Shown here one piece after another: positions 6,798-12,236 of a DNA stretch of 64,000 nucleotides. The number at the start of each line of letters is the position of its first letter. Within the stretch, counting starts at the first letter, position 1. The notes under the pieces were generated by a model. That model searched no databases. It saw only the letters and a list, made by a program, of their open reading frames with translations, and was not told the DNA's origin. Origin of the DNA: Candidatus Rifleibacteriota bacterium (GTDB taxonomy: Bacteria; Muiribacteriota; Ozemobacteria; Ozemobacterales; Ozemobacteraceae); the NCBI GenBank assembly GCA_012520995.1, contig JAAYNI010000033.1:62001-126000 (forward strand). Reading direction: 5' to 3'. Made by a program: the position numbers and the translations under genes.

Positions 6798-6980
6798 ATG
6801 GCAGAAGTAAGAGTACTAAATGACGAACCTTTAGAAAAAGCTTTGAAACGCTTCCAGAAAAAATGTCAGGAAGCGGGTATTATTAAAGAAATTAAGCGTC
6901 GGAGAGCCTATGAAAAGCCTAGCGAAAAGAAAAAACGTAAAGCTACTGAGGCAAGACGCAAACAGAGAAGAAAACGCTGA
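6798..6980 (+). CDS. rpsU: 30S ribosomal protein S21
   Basis: 60-residue basic small-subunit protein that helps start-site selection. The N-terminus AEVRVLNDEPLEKALKRF and the lysine/arginine-rich tail (KKKRKATEARRKQRRKR) are typical of S21. ATG 6798 is preferred over the in-frame GTG at 6789 because that GTG lies inside the strong ribosome binding sequence (AAGGGGGGTG). The nfeD gene begins one base after its stop, so the two are probably translated together. In Bacillus, rpsU-yqeY is followed by an nfeD gene; here yqeY is absent. Confidence 0.92.
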   Translation: MAEVRVLNDEPLEKALKRFQKKCQEAGIIKEIKRRRAYEKPSEKKKRKATEARRKQRRKR

Positions 6981-6981
6981 T

Positions 6982-8361
6982 ATGTCAGTCGTTTTTTCAT
7001 GCGAAAAAAAGAGTTCCGCGTTCACTTCTATGTCGGGCGCGGGACTTTTTATATTGATTTTTTTCCTTTTTTTCGTTTCGGCTTCTCTGTATGCCAAGCC
7101 TAAAAATAAAGTCCTTGTCTTGCCTGTCACTGGCACAATCAATGATGCAACGGCACTTTTTATTGAAAGGTCGCAGAACAAGGCTGCTCAAGAAGATTAT
7201 AGTCTCTTGATTCTCGAAATTAACTCTAATGGCGGCTTGGTTGATTCCGCGCAAAAAATAAAGAAGCTTTTGCTTTCAGATAAAGTAAAGACAGCCGCTT
7301 TTGTAAACAATCATGCTCTTTCGGCCGCAGCATTAATAGCTATTTGCTGCAATAATATTTATATGGCTCAGGGCTCGGATATGGGAGCTGCAACTCCTTT
7401 CAAGATAAACACTTCAGGAACGTCTATAGCTCCTGTTGAGGCTAAGTTCTTGTCTGCTTTCAAGGCTGAGTTTACTGCGGCGGCCGAGGCTCGTCACAGG
7501 GATATACGTCTGGCGGCGGCAATGGTGGATCCTGAGCACGAAACCATAGACGGTCTTGTGAAAAAAGGCGAAATATTGACTTTTACTACGGAACAGGCTT
7601 ATCAACATGGTTATTGCGACGGCATTGTTAAAGATGCGGCAGACATAGCTATGATGCAGGGGTTTCCCTCCAATGTTCAAATAGATCGAGTTAAGCCAAC
7701 TCCATTTGAGAAATATGTGATGTATCTGAGAACCCCTTGGGTTACCGGCTTGGTTTTCGCTGTGGGCTTTTGGGGAATAGTTATAGAAATTTTTATGCCT
7801 GGCTTCGGTGTTTTCGGAGTTATAGGCATACTTGCTATGCTGAGCTTCTTTTGGCAAAGTTTCTTTATGCATCTTGCTGGTTTTGAAATGATCCTGCTTT
7901 TCGGTTTGGGAATATTGCTGCTATTGTTGGAAATATTCGTAATACCTGGGTTTGGAGTAACGGGGTTTTCTGGTATTCTTTGCATAATAGGCTCGGTTAT
8001 TATGGGTTTCGGCGGTTTACAGCAGACTTGGGATGCCATAACGGCTCTTTTGCTTTATTCTTTTGTTTTTGGTTTTCTGGCCTGGAAACTGATACCGCGT
8101 ACAAAGCTTTTGCACCCTCTTATAAATGATACTGCTATGACTCCTGAGGCAGGTTATACGGCAGTCGAGCCTTCGCTTTATGAACATTTGAAAGGAATGG
8201 AGGGCGTGACGGCAAGCGTTTGCAGACCTTCCGGGAAAATCCGTGTGGGCGGCGAACTCTATGATGCTGTCTCCGAAGGCGAATTTATTGAGAGCGGCGA
8301 ACATGTTCTTGTTATTAATGTTGAAGGAAACAAAATAACTGTTAGGCGTATAGCTGGTTGA
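6982..8361 (+). CDS. NfeD-like membrane serine protease (ClpP-class domain + NfeD OB domain)
   Basis: 459-residue membrane protein of the long NfeD family, which usually works with flotillin/stomatin-type membrane proteins. A signal/anchor segment (GLFILIFFLFFVSASLYA) is followed by a ClpP-class domain: LLILEINSNGGLV is the substrate/oxyanion strand and LSAAALIAICCNNIYM carries the probable nucleophilic serine. Four or more membrane helices follow, with repeated GFGVFG-type turns, then a C-terminal OB-fold (GMEGVTASVCRPSGKIRVGGELYD). An upstream in-frame ATG at 6910 is rejected because it lies inside rpsU; ATG 7030 is a later alternative that leaves a classic signal peptide. No flotillin gene is adjacent; instead a short NfeD follows. 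Confidence 0.85.
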   Translation: MSVVFSCEKKSSAFTSMSGAGLFILIFFLFFVSASLYAKPKNKVLVLPVTGTINDATALFIERSQNKAAQEDYSLLILEINSNGGLVDSAQKIKKLLLSDKVKTAAFVNNHALSAAALIAICCNNIYMAQGSDMGAATPFKINTSGTSIAPVEAKFLSAFKAEFTAAAEARHRDIRLAAAMVDPEHETIDGLVKKGEILTFTTEQAYQHGYCDGIVKDAADIAMMQGFPSNVQIDRVKPTPFEKYVMYLRTPWVTGLVFAVGFWGIVIEIFMPGFGVFGVIGILAMLSFFWQSFFMHLAGFEMILLFGLGILLLLLEIFVIPGFGVTGFSGILCIIGSVIMGFGGLQQTWDAITALLLYSFVFGFLAWKLIPRTKLLHPLINDTAMTPEAGYTAVEPSLYEHLKGMEGVTASVCRPSGKIRVGGELYDAVSEGEFIESGEHVLVINVEGNKITVRRIAG

Positions 8362-8444
8362 AGTTTTATATTTAACCTATTAGCTCTTTTTTCTAAGATA
8401 TAATCTTCTTATTTAAATATAGAAGTGTCAGAGGTAATTTTGAG

Positions 8445-9095
8445 ATGCGTGTCACCAAACTTCATCTTTTAACATTCTTCTTCCTCTTTTTCTTTTCGAT
8501 CATAGCTGGTCATGCTCAGAGCGGCACTCTCTTGCCTGAAAAGGGAGCTCAAATTGGAAATGAGAACAGCTCGAGCGATACTGTAAAGAGCAAAGCTTCC
8601 TCCAAAGTTGTCTGGCTAGTCGTAGTGGTTGTCTTGATGATTGTTGCTACGATTTCCATGATAACTGAGGCTTTGGTGCCTGGTTTCGGTGTTTTCGGCA
8701 TAACATCTATTTTGGCTTATTCCGCTGCATTTGTAATCGCTTCCCTCACTTTGAGCTGGGCTGCGGCAGGCTTGGTTTTAATTCTTTCTCTCCTTGGTGT
8801 AGGAGCATTCGCCTTCTATTTCTTTGTTCTTTTTCCGAAGACAAAGGTTGGGCAAAAGATTATTCTTGGGGATTCTCACATTGCCGAAGGACAGAGTGCT
8901 ATACCTGATTACACTTATCTGATAGGGAAAGAGGGGAAAACAATAACTGTTTTAAAACCCACTGGTACAGCTATGATAGATGGTAAACGCACAACAGTGC
9001 TGGCTCGCGGTATGTTTGTGGAGCCGAATGTGAATGTGGTGGTAACGGGTGTACAGGGCGTTGATGTTCTTGTGAAGCCCTTGGAAGAGGAATAA
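8445..9095 (+). CDS. short NfeD-like membrane protein
   Basis: 216-residue NfeD family member without protease domain. N-terminal signal peptide (HLLTFFFLFFFSIIAGHAQ), a soluble linker, two to three membrane helices around residues 65-130 containing the GFGVFG turn also present in the previous gene, and a C-terminal OB-fold domain (IGKEGKTITVLKPTGTAMIDG). ATG 8445 has GAGG about 10 bases upstream. It lies 83 bases after the long NfeD gene; a TATAAT at 8399-8404 in this gap might give it its own promoter, although no convincing -35 is seen. Short NfeD proteins typically pair with a slipin/flotillin, absent here. Confidence 0.8.
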   Translation: MRVTKLHLLTFFFLFFFSIIAGHAQSGTLLPEKGAQIGNENSSSDTVKSKASSKVVWLVVVVVLMIVATISMITEALVPGFGVFGITSILAYSAAFVIASLTLSWAAAGLVLILSLLGVGAFAFYFFVLFPKTKVGQKIILGDSHIAEGQSAIPDYTYLIGKEGKTITVLKPTGTAMIDGKRTTVLARGMFVEPNVNVVVTGVQGVDVLVKPLEEE

Positions 9096-9138: not shown

Positions 9139-9167
9139 TTGACTTTATTTGAAGTTTTTCTTATTAT
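9139..9167 (+). promoter_or_regulatory. promoter of the SLH porin gene
   Basis: TTGACT at 9139-9144, 17-base spacer, TATTAT at 9162-9167. Predicted transcription start is about 9174, leaving a leader of roughly 250 nt before the porin ATG. Confidence 0.6.
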
Positions 9168-9173
9168 CTCTCA

Positions 9174-9426
9174 CAAGAAAGCTAGCTAATTAACTTTCGG
9201 GTGTCGCGAAAGGGGGTGTGAAGAATCCTAGAGTAGCCCGCAAGCAAAAGCGAGTTTTCGAAACAGGGAAAGAGAACGCTCTAACCTGACCTGAGTAAAC
9301 AGAGAAGGTCGAACTAAAAGGAAACAAGGAAACTTTTAGAGATAGACTTCAAAGTTTGCGAAGAGTAGGGTAAAAGATTCTCGCCCAAACAAAATAAAAT
9401 CCAAACCAAACTTTAGGAGTAAATTA
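9174..9426 (+). ncRNA. long structured 5' leader of the SLH porin mRNA (class unknown)
   Basis: Noncoding leader between the predicted transcription start and the porin ATG. It is more GC-rich and more structured than other gaps. Visible stem-loops: CTTTCG/CGAAAG (9194-9199 with 9207-9212); CAGG/CCTG (9264-9267 with 9285-9288) enclosing AGAG/CTCT (9271-9274 with 9279-9282, loop AACG); and CTAAAAG/CTTTTAG (9314-9320 with 9333-9339). The last ~50 bases are A-rich and unstructured up to TAGGAG at the ribosome binding site. I compared it from memory with the c-di-GMP, c-di-AMP, cobalamin and RNase P motifs and could not match any. It could be a riboswitch, a protein-binding leader or an mRNA-stability element. 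Confidence 0.45.
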
Positions 9427-10983
9427 ATGAAACGTTTTTCAATACTCATGCTCGCAGTTATGGTATTCACTACCGTAGTAGCAAGCGCAAATCCTTTCTC
9501 TGATGTTCCTTTTTCTCATTGGGCATATGATGCAGTTAACAAGCTTTCCGTAAGAGGCATTGTTCAGGGTTTCCCTGATGGCACTTTCAAGGGCAGCAAA
9601 GAAGTAACCAGATATCAGATGGCTATGATGGTAGCAAAAATGCTCGCCAGCGTAGAACAGATGATGGAATCTGGCATGGGCACCAACCTTGTAACCAAGG
9701 CTGACCTTCAGACTCTTGAAAAACTTACAGTTGAATTCGCAGACGAACTTGCACTCCTCGGCGTTAAAGTTACAGCTCTCGAAGACGACATGCAGGTTGT
9801 AAAAGAAGACGTAGCCATCCTCAGAAACGATGTTGACGGAATCAAAACCTTCATCGCACAGGGCGGAACCGATAAAGTTTCTGTCGGCGGCGACCTCAGA
9901 ATTCTCGCTCACAATGGCGAACAAGAGCCCAATACAGACCTTGAAGGCATCACAACAACTCTTCGCTTCAACTTCAATATGAACATTGATGAAAACGTTA
10001 AAGCCGTTGCAAGATGGAATGCTATAGTACGCCATCCTTGGAATCAGCGAAACATCAATGACAATGTTAACAACGCTTTCGACAGAGCTTATGTTCAGCT
10101 TAAGAACCCCTTTGATATCAAAGGTGACATGATAGTTGGTCGTCAGTATGTCGTCAGAGGTCACAGCTTGATTATCAACGACAACTTCGACGGTGTTATT
10201 TTCAACAAAAAAGCTGGTGAAGTAGATCTTTCCTTCGGCGCTCTTGACAACGATGCACGTATGGCTGATGGCAGCAAGAACCTTATCATGTTGGGTGCAG
10301 CTGGCAAATTCAAAGATCACGATGTATATGCTAACATCTATTACAGAGAATATGATGACAATATGGCAGCAGATACAGACCTTAAAGACACAATCATAGA
10401 ACTCGGTGCAGCTGGCACATTCGGCGACAAAGGCACCATGGGTTACGACCTCTCCGTAGCAAATGTTAAACAAGAAGGCGATGTTATCGACCACTCTGGC
10501 ATAATGGCTTATGGCGCATTCAAATATGACGACGCAGCTCAGGATTGGGCACTTAAAGTAGCTTATGGCTATGCTGATGATGAAGTTACAGACTTCGGTT
10601 TGGTTGACTACGACCAGAGATACCTTGATGGCGTTGAATCTCCTTTCGAAGACATCATGAGAGCAAGCGTTCTTTTCGGTGCTGCAGCTCCTGGCGGTGC
10701 TGTAACAAACTTCAGCAATATCAAAGTTCAGGGCGAATACAGACCTGTTGACAGCAAGCACTATGCAAGATTGGCAGTTGACATGCTGAAAGCTGATGAC
10801 GATACTTTGCCTAGCTTTGTAGCTACAGATCCTAACGGCGAAGCAATGGTTCTCACATTCGAATACAGATATCAGTTCGCAGAAAATACAAGACTCAGCA
10901 TCGGTTATACAGACTTTGCTAATGACACAGACAATTGTCCTGACTATGGCATAGCTTGGGTTGAACTCTTCAGCAGATTCTAA
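9427..10983 (+). CDS. SLH-domain outer-membrane porin
   Basis: 518-residue outer-membrane channel of the SLH-porin type. Signal peptide MKRFSILMLAVMVFTTVVASA, then one SLH domain (about 22-65: FSDVPFSHWAYDAVNKL, GIVQGFPDGTF, TRYQMAMMVAKML) expected to bind peptidoglycan-linked polymer, a coiled coil (about 78-135) that would span the periplasm, and a beta-rich barrel from about 145 to the C-terminus. The last residue is phenylalanine (WVELFSRF), as expected for a barrel inserted by BamA. Codon use is strongly biased to C-ending codons unlike its neighbours, and it has its own promoter, long leader and strong terminator, all signs of a very highly expressed gene. Confidence 0.9.
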   Translation: MKRFSILMLAVMVFTTVVASANPFSDVPFSHWAYDAVNKLSVRGIVQGFPDGTFKGSKEVTRYQMAMMVAKMLASVEQMMESGMGTNLVTKADLQTLEKLTVEFADELALLGVKVTALEDDMQVVKEDVAILRNDVDGIKTFIAQGGTDKVSVGGDLRILAHNGEQEPNTDLEGITTTLRFNFNMNIDENVKAVARWNAIVRHPWNQRNINDNVNNAFDRAYVQLKNPFDIKGDMIVGRQYVVRGHSLIINDNFDGVIFNKKAGEVDLSFGALDNDARMADGSKNLIMLGAAGKFKDHDVYANIYYREYDDNMAADTDLKDTIIELGAAGTFGDKGTMGYDLSVANVKQEGDVIDHSGIMAYGAFKYDDAAQDWALKVAYGYADDEVTDFGLVDYDQRYLDGVESPFEDIMRASVLFGAAAPGGAVTNFSNIKVQGEYRPVDSKHYARLAVDMLKADDDTLPSFVATDPNGEAMVLTFEYRYQFAENTRLSIGYTDFANDTDNCPDYGIAWVELFSRF

Positions 10984-11297: not shown

Positions 11298-12236
11298 ATG
11301 AGAAAAACATTTTTATTGCTGTTTATGGCACTTACTTTAACGGTTTCTCTCTATGCCCAAGGCGACATTAAAGATGTCGATACAAGGTTATGGGTTGAGC
11401 ATGTAACTTCAATGAGAGAGCTCAGAAGAGAAATTCTTTCTCTTATGCCGGTTGAACAACAAACTCCTGAGCAGAGAGTTCGCTTTGAAGAATTAAATAA
11501 GCTTTTTGATCAGAAAAGAGATGAATGGGACAAATACTTGATTGATGTCTCTCAAGGCAAAAAAGGCAATTATAAACCTGTTTCTTCAAAAGGACACAAA
11601 AGAGGCGTTCAAGTGCCGCCCAACCTGCGTTTTGGTGAAAAGAAAGCAGCTGGATCTGACAAAAATGTAAACAAAGTTAAAGCAGCTCCTTCACATAGCT
11701 CTCCTTGCAAGGATAATGCTGGCAAGGTGAAACCTTGCTCTGAGCATTGTAAACATACTCAAAAAGGACTCTGTCGCAATAATGATGCCTGCAAAGGTGA
11801 CTGTAAGAACTGTGAAAATCATAAAGCTGATAAAACTGTAAAGGCTTCTTCTTGCCAAAAAAACACTCCTCGAGCATGCTGGCGCAGAATGTATAGTGTT
11901 GGATGCCGTGCAGTTTATGCTCATTTAAGAGATAATTGTAAAGGTGATTGTGAACACTGCTTGGAGAAAAGAAAATGTGACAAAGAGGCTAAGTTTGCTT
12001 GTTCCTCTAACTGTTCAAAAAATTGTTCTAAAGTAAAAGCAGACAAAGAAGCAAAATCCAGCTGTTCCTCTGCTTGTTCTAGCAAGTGCTCTGAAGTGAA
12101 AACAGGCAAATATGATAAGCTTAAAACTAATAAAAAACTAAAATCTCCTTGTAAAGGCGATTGTGATAATTGTATAAGAGTGGAATGCCCTAATAATCCG
12201 CTAAATATGGGAGTGGGAGTTAGAGGCAGAATCTGA
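11298..12236 (+). CDS. secreted cysteine-rich protein with CKGDC motifs
   Basis: 312-residue exported protein of no family I recognise. Signal peptide MRKTFLLLFMALTLTVSLYA; residues about 25-75 are helical and charged; from about residue 135 the chain holds 24 cysteines in roughly 165 residues. The motif CKGDCxxC occurs three times (CKGDCKNC, CKGDCEHC, CKGDCDNC), and a stretch resembling DKEAK-x-x-CSSxCSxxCSxVK is duplicated in tandem. The even, clustered spacing suggests disulfide knots or a metal-binding surface in the periplasm or outside the cell; which is unknown. It is lysine-rich and low in hydrophobics after the signal. It precedes the pseudopilin remnants on the same strand, but a link to them is not shown. 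Confidence 0.75.
   Translation: MRKTFLLLFMALTLTVSLYAQGDIKDVDTRLWVEHVTSMRELRREILSLMPVEQQTPEQRVRFEELNKLFDQKRDEWDKYLIDVSQGKKGNYKPVSSKGHKRGVQVPPNLRFGEKKAAGSDKNVNKVKAAPSHSSPCKDNAGKVKPCSEHCKHTQKGLCRNNDACKGDCKNCENHKADKTVKASSCQKNTPRACWRRMYSVGCRAVYAHLRDNCKGDCEHCLEKRKCDKEAKFACSSNCSKNCSKVKADKEAKSSCSSACSSKCSEVKTGKYDKLKTNKKLKSPCKGDCDNCIRVECPNNPLNMGVGVRGRI

Follow-up and report, generated by a model that had tools for sequence, protein, structure and literature searches.

A two-module leader of an OmpM-like porin mRNA as a candidate control element of outer-membrane porins

The porin locus and its leader

The window analysed here (the whole stretch of 64,000 nucleotides from a Candidatus Rifleibacteriota bacterium, whose genome comprises 2.84 Mb in 101 contigs) carries on its + strand the gene of a porin with an SLH domain. 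The search of the porin against the PDB returned 8bys (E 4e-24) and 8bym (E 3e-22) as the best sequence relatives. Both are S-layer homology domain-containing proteins and were taken to be OmpM-type porins. The porin combines an SLH domain with a porin barrel behind it and resembles these solved structures; its Pfam match to Porin_4 was weak and below the cut-off. The features of the locus are as follows.

9139..9167, + strand: sigma-70-type promoter of the porin transcript (TTGACT, 17 nt, TATTAT), found by a scan, with its placement kept in family relatives
9174..9426, + strand: 5' leader of the porin mRNA, its 5' end inferred from the promoter
9194..9212, + strand: window-specific alternative hairpin CUUUCG/CGAAAG, read from the sequence, which would cover part of the purine tract
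9198..9240, + strand: module 1 (P1), a stem 9198-9201/9237-9240 (CGGG/CCCG in the window) around the purine tract
9209..9218, + strand: the tract AAAGGGGGUG, a 16S-tail complement with 9 Watson-Crick pairs and 1 G-U pair
9314..9339, + strand: module 2 (P3), the hairpin CUAAAAG/CUUUUAG with a 12-nt loop, supported by fold, covariation and an independent model
9321..9332, + strand: loop GAAACAAGGAAA, conserved (consensus GAAACANGGANA) and shared letter for letter with Cyano-1/Yfr2
9415..9419, + strand: ribosome binding site AGGAG of the porin, read from the sequence
9427..10983, + strand: SLH-domain porin (OmpM-like), 518 aa (Pfam SLH, E 7e-12)

An earlier note on this DNA had proposed a promoter at 9139-9167 followed by a structured leader of about 250 nt. 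The promoter matches the consensus at 10 of 12 positions in a scan that expects 4.5 chance sites per 3 kb, and the leader does span about 253 nt up to the start codon at 9427; the transcript starts given throughout this study are promoter-based. The A-rich run described ahead of the porin start was also found, with 48% A over the final 60 nt of the leader. The leader was said to be GC-richer as well, which holds in comparison with the promoter region (0.407 versus 0.205 just upstream) and not in comparison with the whole window (0.408).

Directly upstream of the promoter, the stretch 6910-9095 encodes a ClpP/SppA-like membrane protein, assigned from weak NCBIfam matches below the cut-off, and an NfeD-domain protein. 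On the other side of the porin gene lies a cysteine-rich ORF of 312 aa (11298-12236) with repeated CKGDC/CS-type motifs, for which Pfam and NCBIfam gave no match.

The fold of the whole leader was no better than that of shuffled sequences (z -1.10; 27 of 200 shuffles folded as well), and the P3 region alone folded better than its shuffles (z -2.15). For the comparison with relatives, the first 160 residues of the porin were searched in 56 genomes of the same GTDB phylum, 42 of which had a match, and 70 loci (L009-L078) were taken by protein similarity alone. The upstream regions were read for 66 of them, since the start could not be placed in L025, L055, L062 and L063. Both modules were present in 25 of these leaders, module 1 only in 8, module 2 only in 5 and neither in 28, each paralogue being counted as a separate row. 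At least one module was thus seen in 38 of the 66 leaders as compared with 0 of 66 in the control, in which the upstream sequence was reversed but not complemented; both counts used fixed patterns and the 320 nt ahead of the start. The leaders with neither module belong mostly to genus g11 and to more distant paralogues.

The leader is therefore conserved in relatives, and the stems of P1 and P3 covary, as described below. The comparison supports these two conserved modules instead of the "at least three stem-loops" of the earlier note. Its view of a structured leader on the mRNA of an abundant-type envelope protein outside the known Rfam families was borne out: in Rfam scans of the window and of 17 loci with the loop, no family reached the gathering score for the element, and tRNAs and a group II intron were the only detections in the 17 loci. 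With conservation and covariation among relatives and no confident Rfam match, the leader withstands the refutation that the note had set for it. Of the roles suggested there, stabilisation of the mRNA or binding of a trans-acting partner may apply. The reach into other phyla, the 16S-tail complement and the identity of the loop with that of Yfr2 go beyond the note. When RNAalifold was applied to 19 leaders of the same family, it returned P1 and a short SD hairpin only.

Most of the same-family leaders L010-L044 contain a CCCC(C) run about 45 nt ahead of the start codon, which could pair with GGGGG at the ribosome binding site; this run is absent from the window. Two BLAST matches were discarded as evidence, namely L002, a chance match within a short coding sequence, and L007, which sits in unrelated genes.

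The P1 stem and its purine tract

In module 1, a short stem encloses the consensus AAAGGRGGTG (9209-9218 in the window). The letters of the stem vary in relatives (CAGG/CCUG, UGGG/CCCA, GAGC/GCUC and others). The pairing of the flanks was examined in 41 non-redundant leaders having both the tract and the loop. Judged by record titles and search groups, these come from four phyla, namely Bacillota, Margulis/Saganbacteria, Synergistales and the phylum of the window. The mean pairing energy was -19.8 kcal/mol, as compared with -14.2 kcal/mol when the flanks were swapped between leaders (Mann-Whitney p 2e-12). The alternative hairpin CUUUCG/CGAAAG of the window is absent from the aligned leaders of relatives.

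The tract can pair over 10 nt with CACCUCCUUU, which we take to be the 16S tail of this bacterium. Pairing of this length with at most 2 G-U pairs was found in 41 of the 41 leaders, which is partly so by construction, because the selecting pattern required RRRGGRGGTG. The tract is only slightly more often unpaired than with shuffled flanks (predicted probability 0.55 versus 0.50).

No start codon lies at ribosomal spacing behind the tract in the window. The same is true of 33 of the 41 leaders, which have no start codon 3-13 nt behind the tract opening at least 8 codons; an upstream ORF was therefore rejected as the purpose of the tract. In three Wallbacteria-type loci (L036, L037 and L069), an ATG stands 8 nt behind the tract and opens frames of 621, 620 and 201 codons toward the porin, so the tract may be a genuine start there. 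Where leaders of the same family have a near-consensus promoter, 41-51 nt separate the end of its -10 box from the GGRGG tract, which places P1 near the 5' end of the transcript.

A known counterpart of such a tract is STAB-SD, described as a leader Shine-Dalgarno sequence without a translation start that is able to bind the tail of the 16S rRNA and acts as a block to RNase J1 (PMC4113751). The tract of the window and of the 33 leaders mentioned above likewise complements the 16S tail without a start codon, in the manner of the non-initiating STAB-SD of cry3A of Bacillus thuringiensis. Unlike STAB-SD, the tract is placed inside the conserved P1 stem and joined to a second, sequence-specific hairpin, and stabilisation by it would be assumed by analogy.

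The P3 hairpin inside and outside the window's phylum

Genome contigs were scanned with AAGGAAACANGGACACTT without regard to genes, which gave 66 occurrences in 64 stretches. The next ORF of at least 100 aa began within 350 nt at 56 of these sites, and 42 of these 56 ORFs had an SLH domain in Pfam. In total, we assigned 52 of the 66 sites to porin contexts, corresponding to 48 distinct pairs of flanks. These flanks form stems (-17.2 versus -9.4 kcal/mol when swapped), whereas those of the 14 remaining sites do not (-7.9 versus -6.9 kcal/mol). The gene neighbourhood and the presence of a hairpin were computed separately and agree.

The seven-pair stem of P3 showed a covariation of 0.290 in 54 hairpins, as compared with 0.102 after shuffling (0 of 500 shuffles as high) and at most 0.147 when the pairing was slid. 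In the 37 hairpins from outside the window's phylum, the corresponding values were 0.239, 0.089 and at most 0.140. RNAalifold predicted no pairs on the ungapped hairpin alignment, in our opinion because the stems bulge at different places; for this reason, covariation was counted on the named seven-pair structure instead.

A model, R2, was then built only from the 37 hairpins outside the window's phylum. In the window, its top match was 9302-9351 (29.9 bits, E 4.6e-6; runner-up 14.6 bits), and the same hairpin ranked first in the whole genome, 10 bits above the second match. That second match (contig C7, 19.9 bits) falls within the coding sequence of a helicase-like protein and was taken as chance. 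The genome thus holds one clear copy of P3, on the porin 9427-10983. Complements of 5- to 7-mers of the loop showed no enrichment in the 150 nt around 87 sites. Pairing of the loop in a pseudoknot or over a longer range was rejected on this ground, which leaves the loop free for a partner. The invariance of the loop columns across these 87 sites is partly imposed by the search pattern.

By record title, the porin-linked sites belong to Negativicutes (Selenomonas, Sporomusa, Phascolarctobacterium, Pelosinus and relatives), to the GTDB phylum of the window (Ozemobacter, Wallbacteria and a MAG titled Cloacimonadota), and to unclassified Bacillota, Margulis- and Saganbacteria and one Synergistales MAG. 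The Negativicutes loci that were read have the loop hairpin only, without module 1. All clearly Gracilicute titles, for example Marinovum, Ferruginibacter, Bdellovibrionaceae and Methylobacillus, are among the 14 unlinked sites. Some of the records scanned are redundant or mis-binned. The record L116, titled Desulfovirgula, is identical to the Ozemobacter record L137 in the sequence surrounding the loop, and its bin is therefore probably mixed.

A looser loop pattern was counted in three phyla against the same pattern read backward. It gave 25 versus 2 matches in the 39 genomes of the window's phylum, where any base was additionally allowed at one further position (18 genomes with matches), 35 versus 4 in the 149 genomes of the phylum of Selenomonas noxia (22 genomes) and 13 versus 0 in the 74 genomes of the Margulis phylum (10 genomes). 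The matches are limited to a minority of the genomes in all three phyla.

In the Margulis group, the loop was also found behind genes. Six distinct hairpins (L204, L207, L208, L209, L210 and L212) account for eight loci, as L166 is the same site as L207 and L168 the same as L204. Here, a long terminator-like stem, 23-30 nt beyond the stop codon of homologous ORFs, carries the loop at its tip. Most of the encoded proteins begin like a signal peptide and continue with a proline-rich segment and a C-terminal part rich in glycine and aromatic residues. The proteins gave no Pfam porin match, and the structure prediction of one of them was of low confidence (mean pLDDT 42) and, like that of one non-SLH neighbour (mean pLDDT 33), too poor to use. 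We read the proteins as small outer-membrane barrels. If this reading is right, the loop marks mRNAs of outer-membrane proteins whatever its position, which counts against a pure start-site switch.

Yfr2, possible readers of the loop and the working of the leader

The closest Rfam entry to the leader is Cyano-1 (RF01701), which scores 23.9 bits in the window as compared with a gathering score of 41. When 20 whole genomes were searched with Cyano-1, none reached the cut-off. Matches at E of 10 or lower were obtained in 7 of them and none in the other 13. The best match fell on a porin-linked or 3'-copy loop in five of the seven (the window's own genome, G061, G066, G119 and G223) and elsewhere in G058 and G065.

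Cyano-1 is given as the motif of the Yfr2 small RNAs (PMC8400943), which are described as having a GGAAACA repeat in the loop of a 5' hairpin (PMC1242208). Two conserved single-stranded motifs are reported for Yfr2, and Yfr2b and Yfr2c are reported to share their start site with downstream genes (PMC2662882). Yfr2 is further described as binding Yfr1, whose targets include mRNAs of porin and other outer-membrane proteins (PMC6778093, PMC6974561). The 12-nt loop GAAACAAGGAAA, closed by G-C, is identical in Cyano-1 and in the hairpin of the window (9321-9332), and in both RNAs an SD-like single-stranded motif on the 5' side is followed by the hairpin. Together with the biology of Yfr1, these likenesses suggest that a cyanobacterial RNA with the same loop already takes part in outer-membrane control. 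Unlike the leader, Yfr2 is a stand-alone cyanobacterial small RNA of about 90 nt, even if two Synechocystis copies share the start site of a downstream gene, and the sequence of the stem and the spacing differ. Common ancestry of the leader and Yfr2 is put forward as a hypothesis; by its score, the leader falls outside the Cyano-1 family.

The strongest alternative to the control element favoured below follows from these likenesses. It takes the leader as the cis counterpart of Yfr2, in which the SD-like tract and the loop would base-pair with a small RNA of anti-SD type, in the way that the cyanobacterial Yfr2 traps Yfr1; a processed leader may then act in trans. The shared loop and order of elements, the pair of single-stranded motifs, the start sites of Yfr2b and Yfr2c, the tie to porin mRNAs via Yfr1 and the five genomes in which a porin-linked or 3'-copy loop is the best match all speak for it. 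We nevertheless consider it unlikely, because all 20 genomes stayed under the Cyano-1 cut-off and the tract and the loop are 42-140 nt apart as compared with about 20 nt in the Cyano-1 consensus.

Three further explanations were found much less probable. The ACANGGA in the loop resembles the CsrA consensus, and P3 shares with the target hairpins of CsrA/RsmA a GGA-containing loop with this core, so CsrA/RsmA could bind the loop and repress or stabilise the porin mRNA. CsrA is encoded in 37 of the 56 genomes searched, including the window's own and most members of its family. Yet the strictly kept GG(N)AAC of the loop is not known as part of a CsrA site, the P3 loop is longer than that of such targets and invariant, and the hairpin persists where CsrA is absent: in the Wallbacteria-type f7 genomes G029, G033 and G036 and in cyanobacteria, which keep the loop and are not known to have CsrA. 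As CsrA was above the cut-off in just 12 of 25 further loop-bearing genomes, we hold this explanation improbable and do not class P3 as a CsrA target. KhpA/KhpB was considered as well and is present in 29 of 32 genomes, the exceptions being all three Wallbacteria (G029, G067 and G068). Since both are absent from some loop-bearing genomes, neither CsrA nor KhpA/B is the general reader of the loop. A riboswitch for a small molecule or an ion would fit the long conserved leader with its invariant unpaired bases and is still less probable: the modules occur separately, the 12-nt loop sits on variable stems and has no complement for a pseudoknot, the + strand contains no terminator-like site within 9174-9426, and the loop is found behind stop codons too. 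The least probable explanation of all is a generic 5' stabilising hairpin in which the loop sequence is incidental. In its favour, the leaders read do have a hairpin close to their inferred 5' end, and stabilisers at the 5' end are known from mRNAs of abundant porins, as in the 5' UTR of E. coli ompA, which is likewise a structured leader of an abundant outer-membrane protein mRNA, though one sharing no sequence known to us with the present leader. A hairpin of this kind would not conserve its loop while the stem varies; here, the loop letters are kept across phyla while the stem letters change.

By sequence comparison, the P1 tract and the P3 loop are conserved across phyla on covarying stems, mainly ahead of SLH porin genes. 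Our preferred, still tentative reading is that the two modules make the leader a control element for the mRNAs of outer-membrane porins. Module 1 would act like a STAB-SD or a standby site at which a 30S subunit docks close to the 5' end; the docked subunit would shield the porin mRNA from 5' decay, feed translation and keep ribosomes near the start. Module 2 would dock a trans-acting factor common to many outer-membrane protein mRNAs, which would set the lifetime or the translation of these mRNAs together. As the loop also caps terminator-like hairpins at 3' ends, the factor probably does more than block the start site and acts on the stability or handling of the mRNA. It may be a more widespread factor than those considered above, or may differ between lineages. 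One joint mechanism is not forced on the two modules, since they occur separately.

A broader version of this control element is possible, if rather doubtful. In it, the hairpin is an ancient sequence tag on the outer-membrane protein mRNAs of diderm Terrabacteria, by which we mean the lineages with OmpM as the tether of their outer membrane; the tag can work at either place, in the 5' leader or past the stop codon, and is read by a dedicated factor, and Yfr2 is a leader copy turned into a free trans-acting RNA.

The recurrence of the hairpin, usually together with the SD-like tract, before outer-membrane protein genes in distant phyla points, so far as sequences can tell, to an old control system for outer-membrane building. 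OmpM-type porins are discussed as a possible ancestral outer-membrane tether for much of the bacterial tree (PMC10628300). If the leader is shared across phyla in the same way, an equally old RNA control of outer-membrane building is suggested. A shared element of this kind would also give a testable origin and partner to Yfr2, a well-studied small RNA for whose loop the passages cited above offer no explanation. The open-licence literature yielded no description of an OmpM leader or of a structured RNA in connection with Selenomonas, and one may exist in subscription journals. The P3 hairpin of about 26 nt would be a defined bait with which the factor could be sought in cultures of Selenomonas, Sporomusa or Synechocystis.

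One Selenomonas-like genome (G223) contains seven copies of the loop. Six of them, including L186, L197 and their neighbours, are paired about 1.6 kb apart on a single contig (C3), which suggests tandem OmpM genes, each with its own leader.
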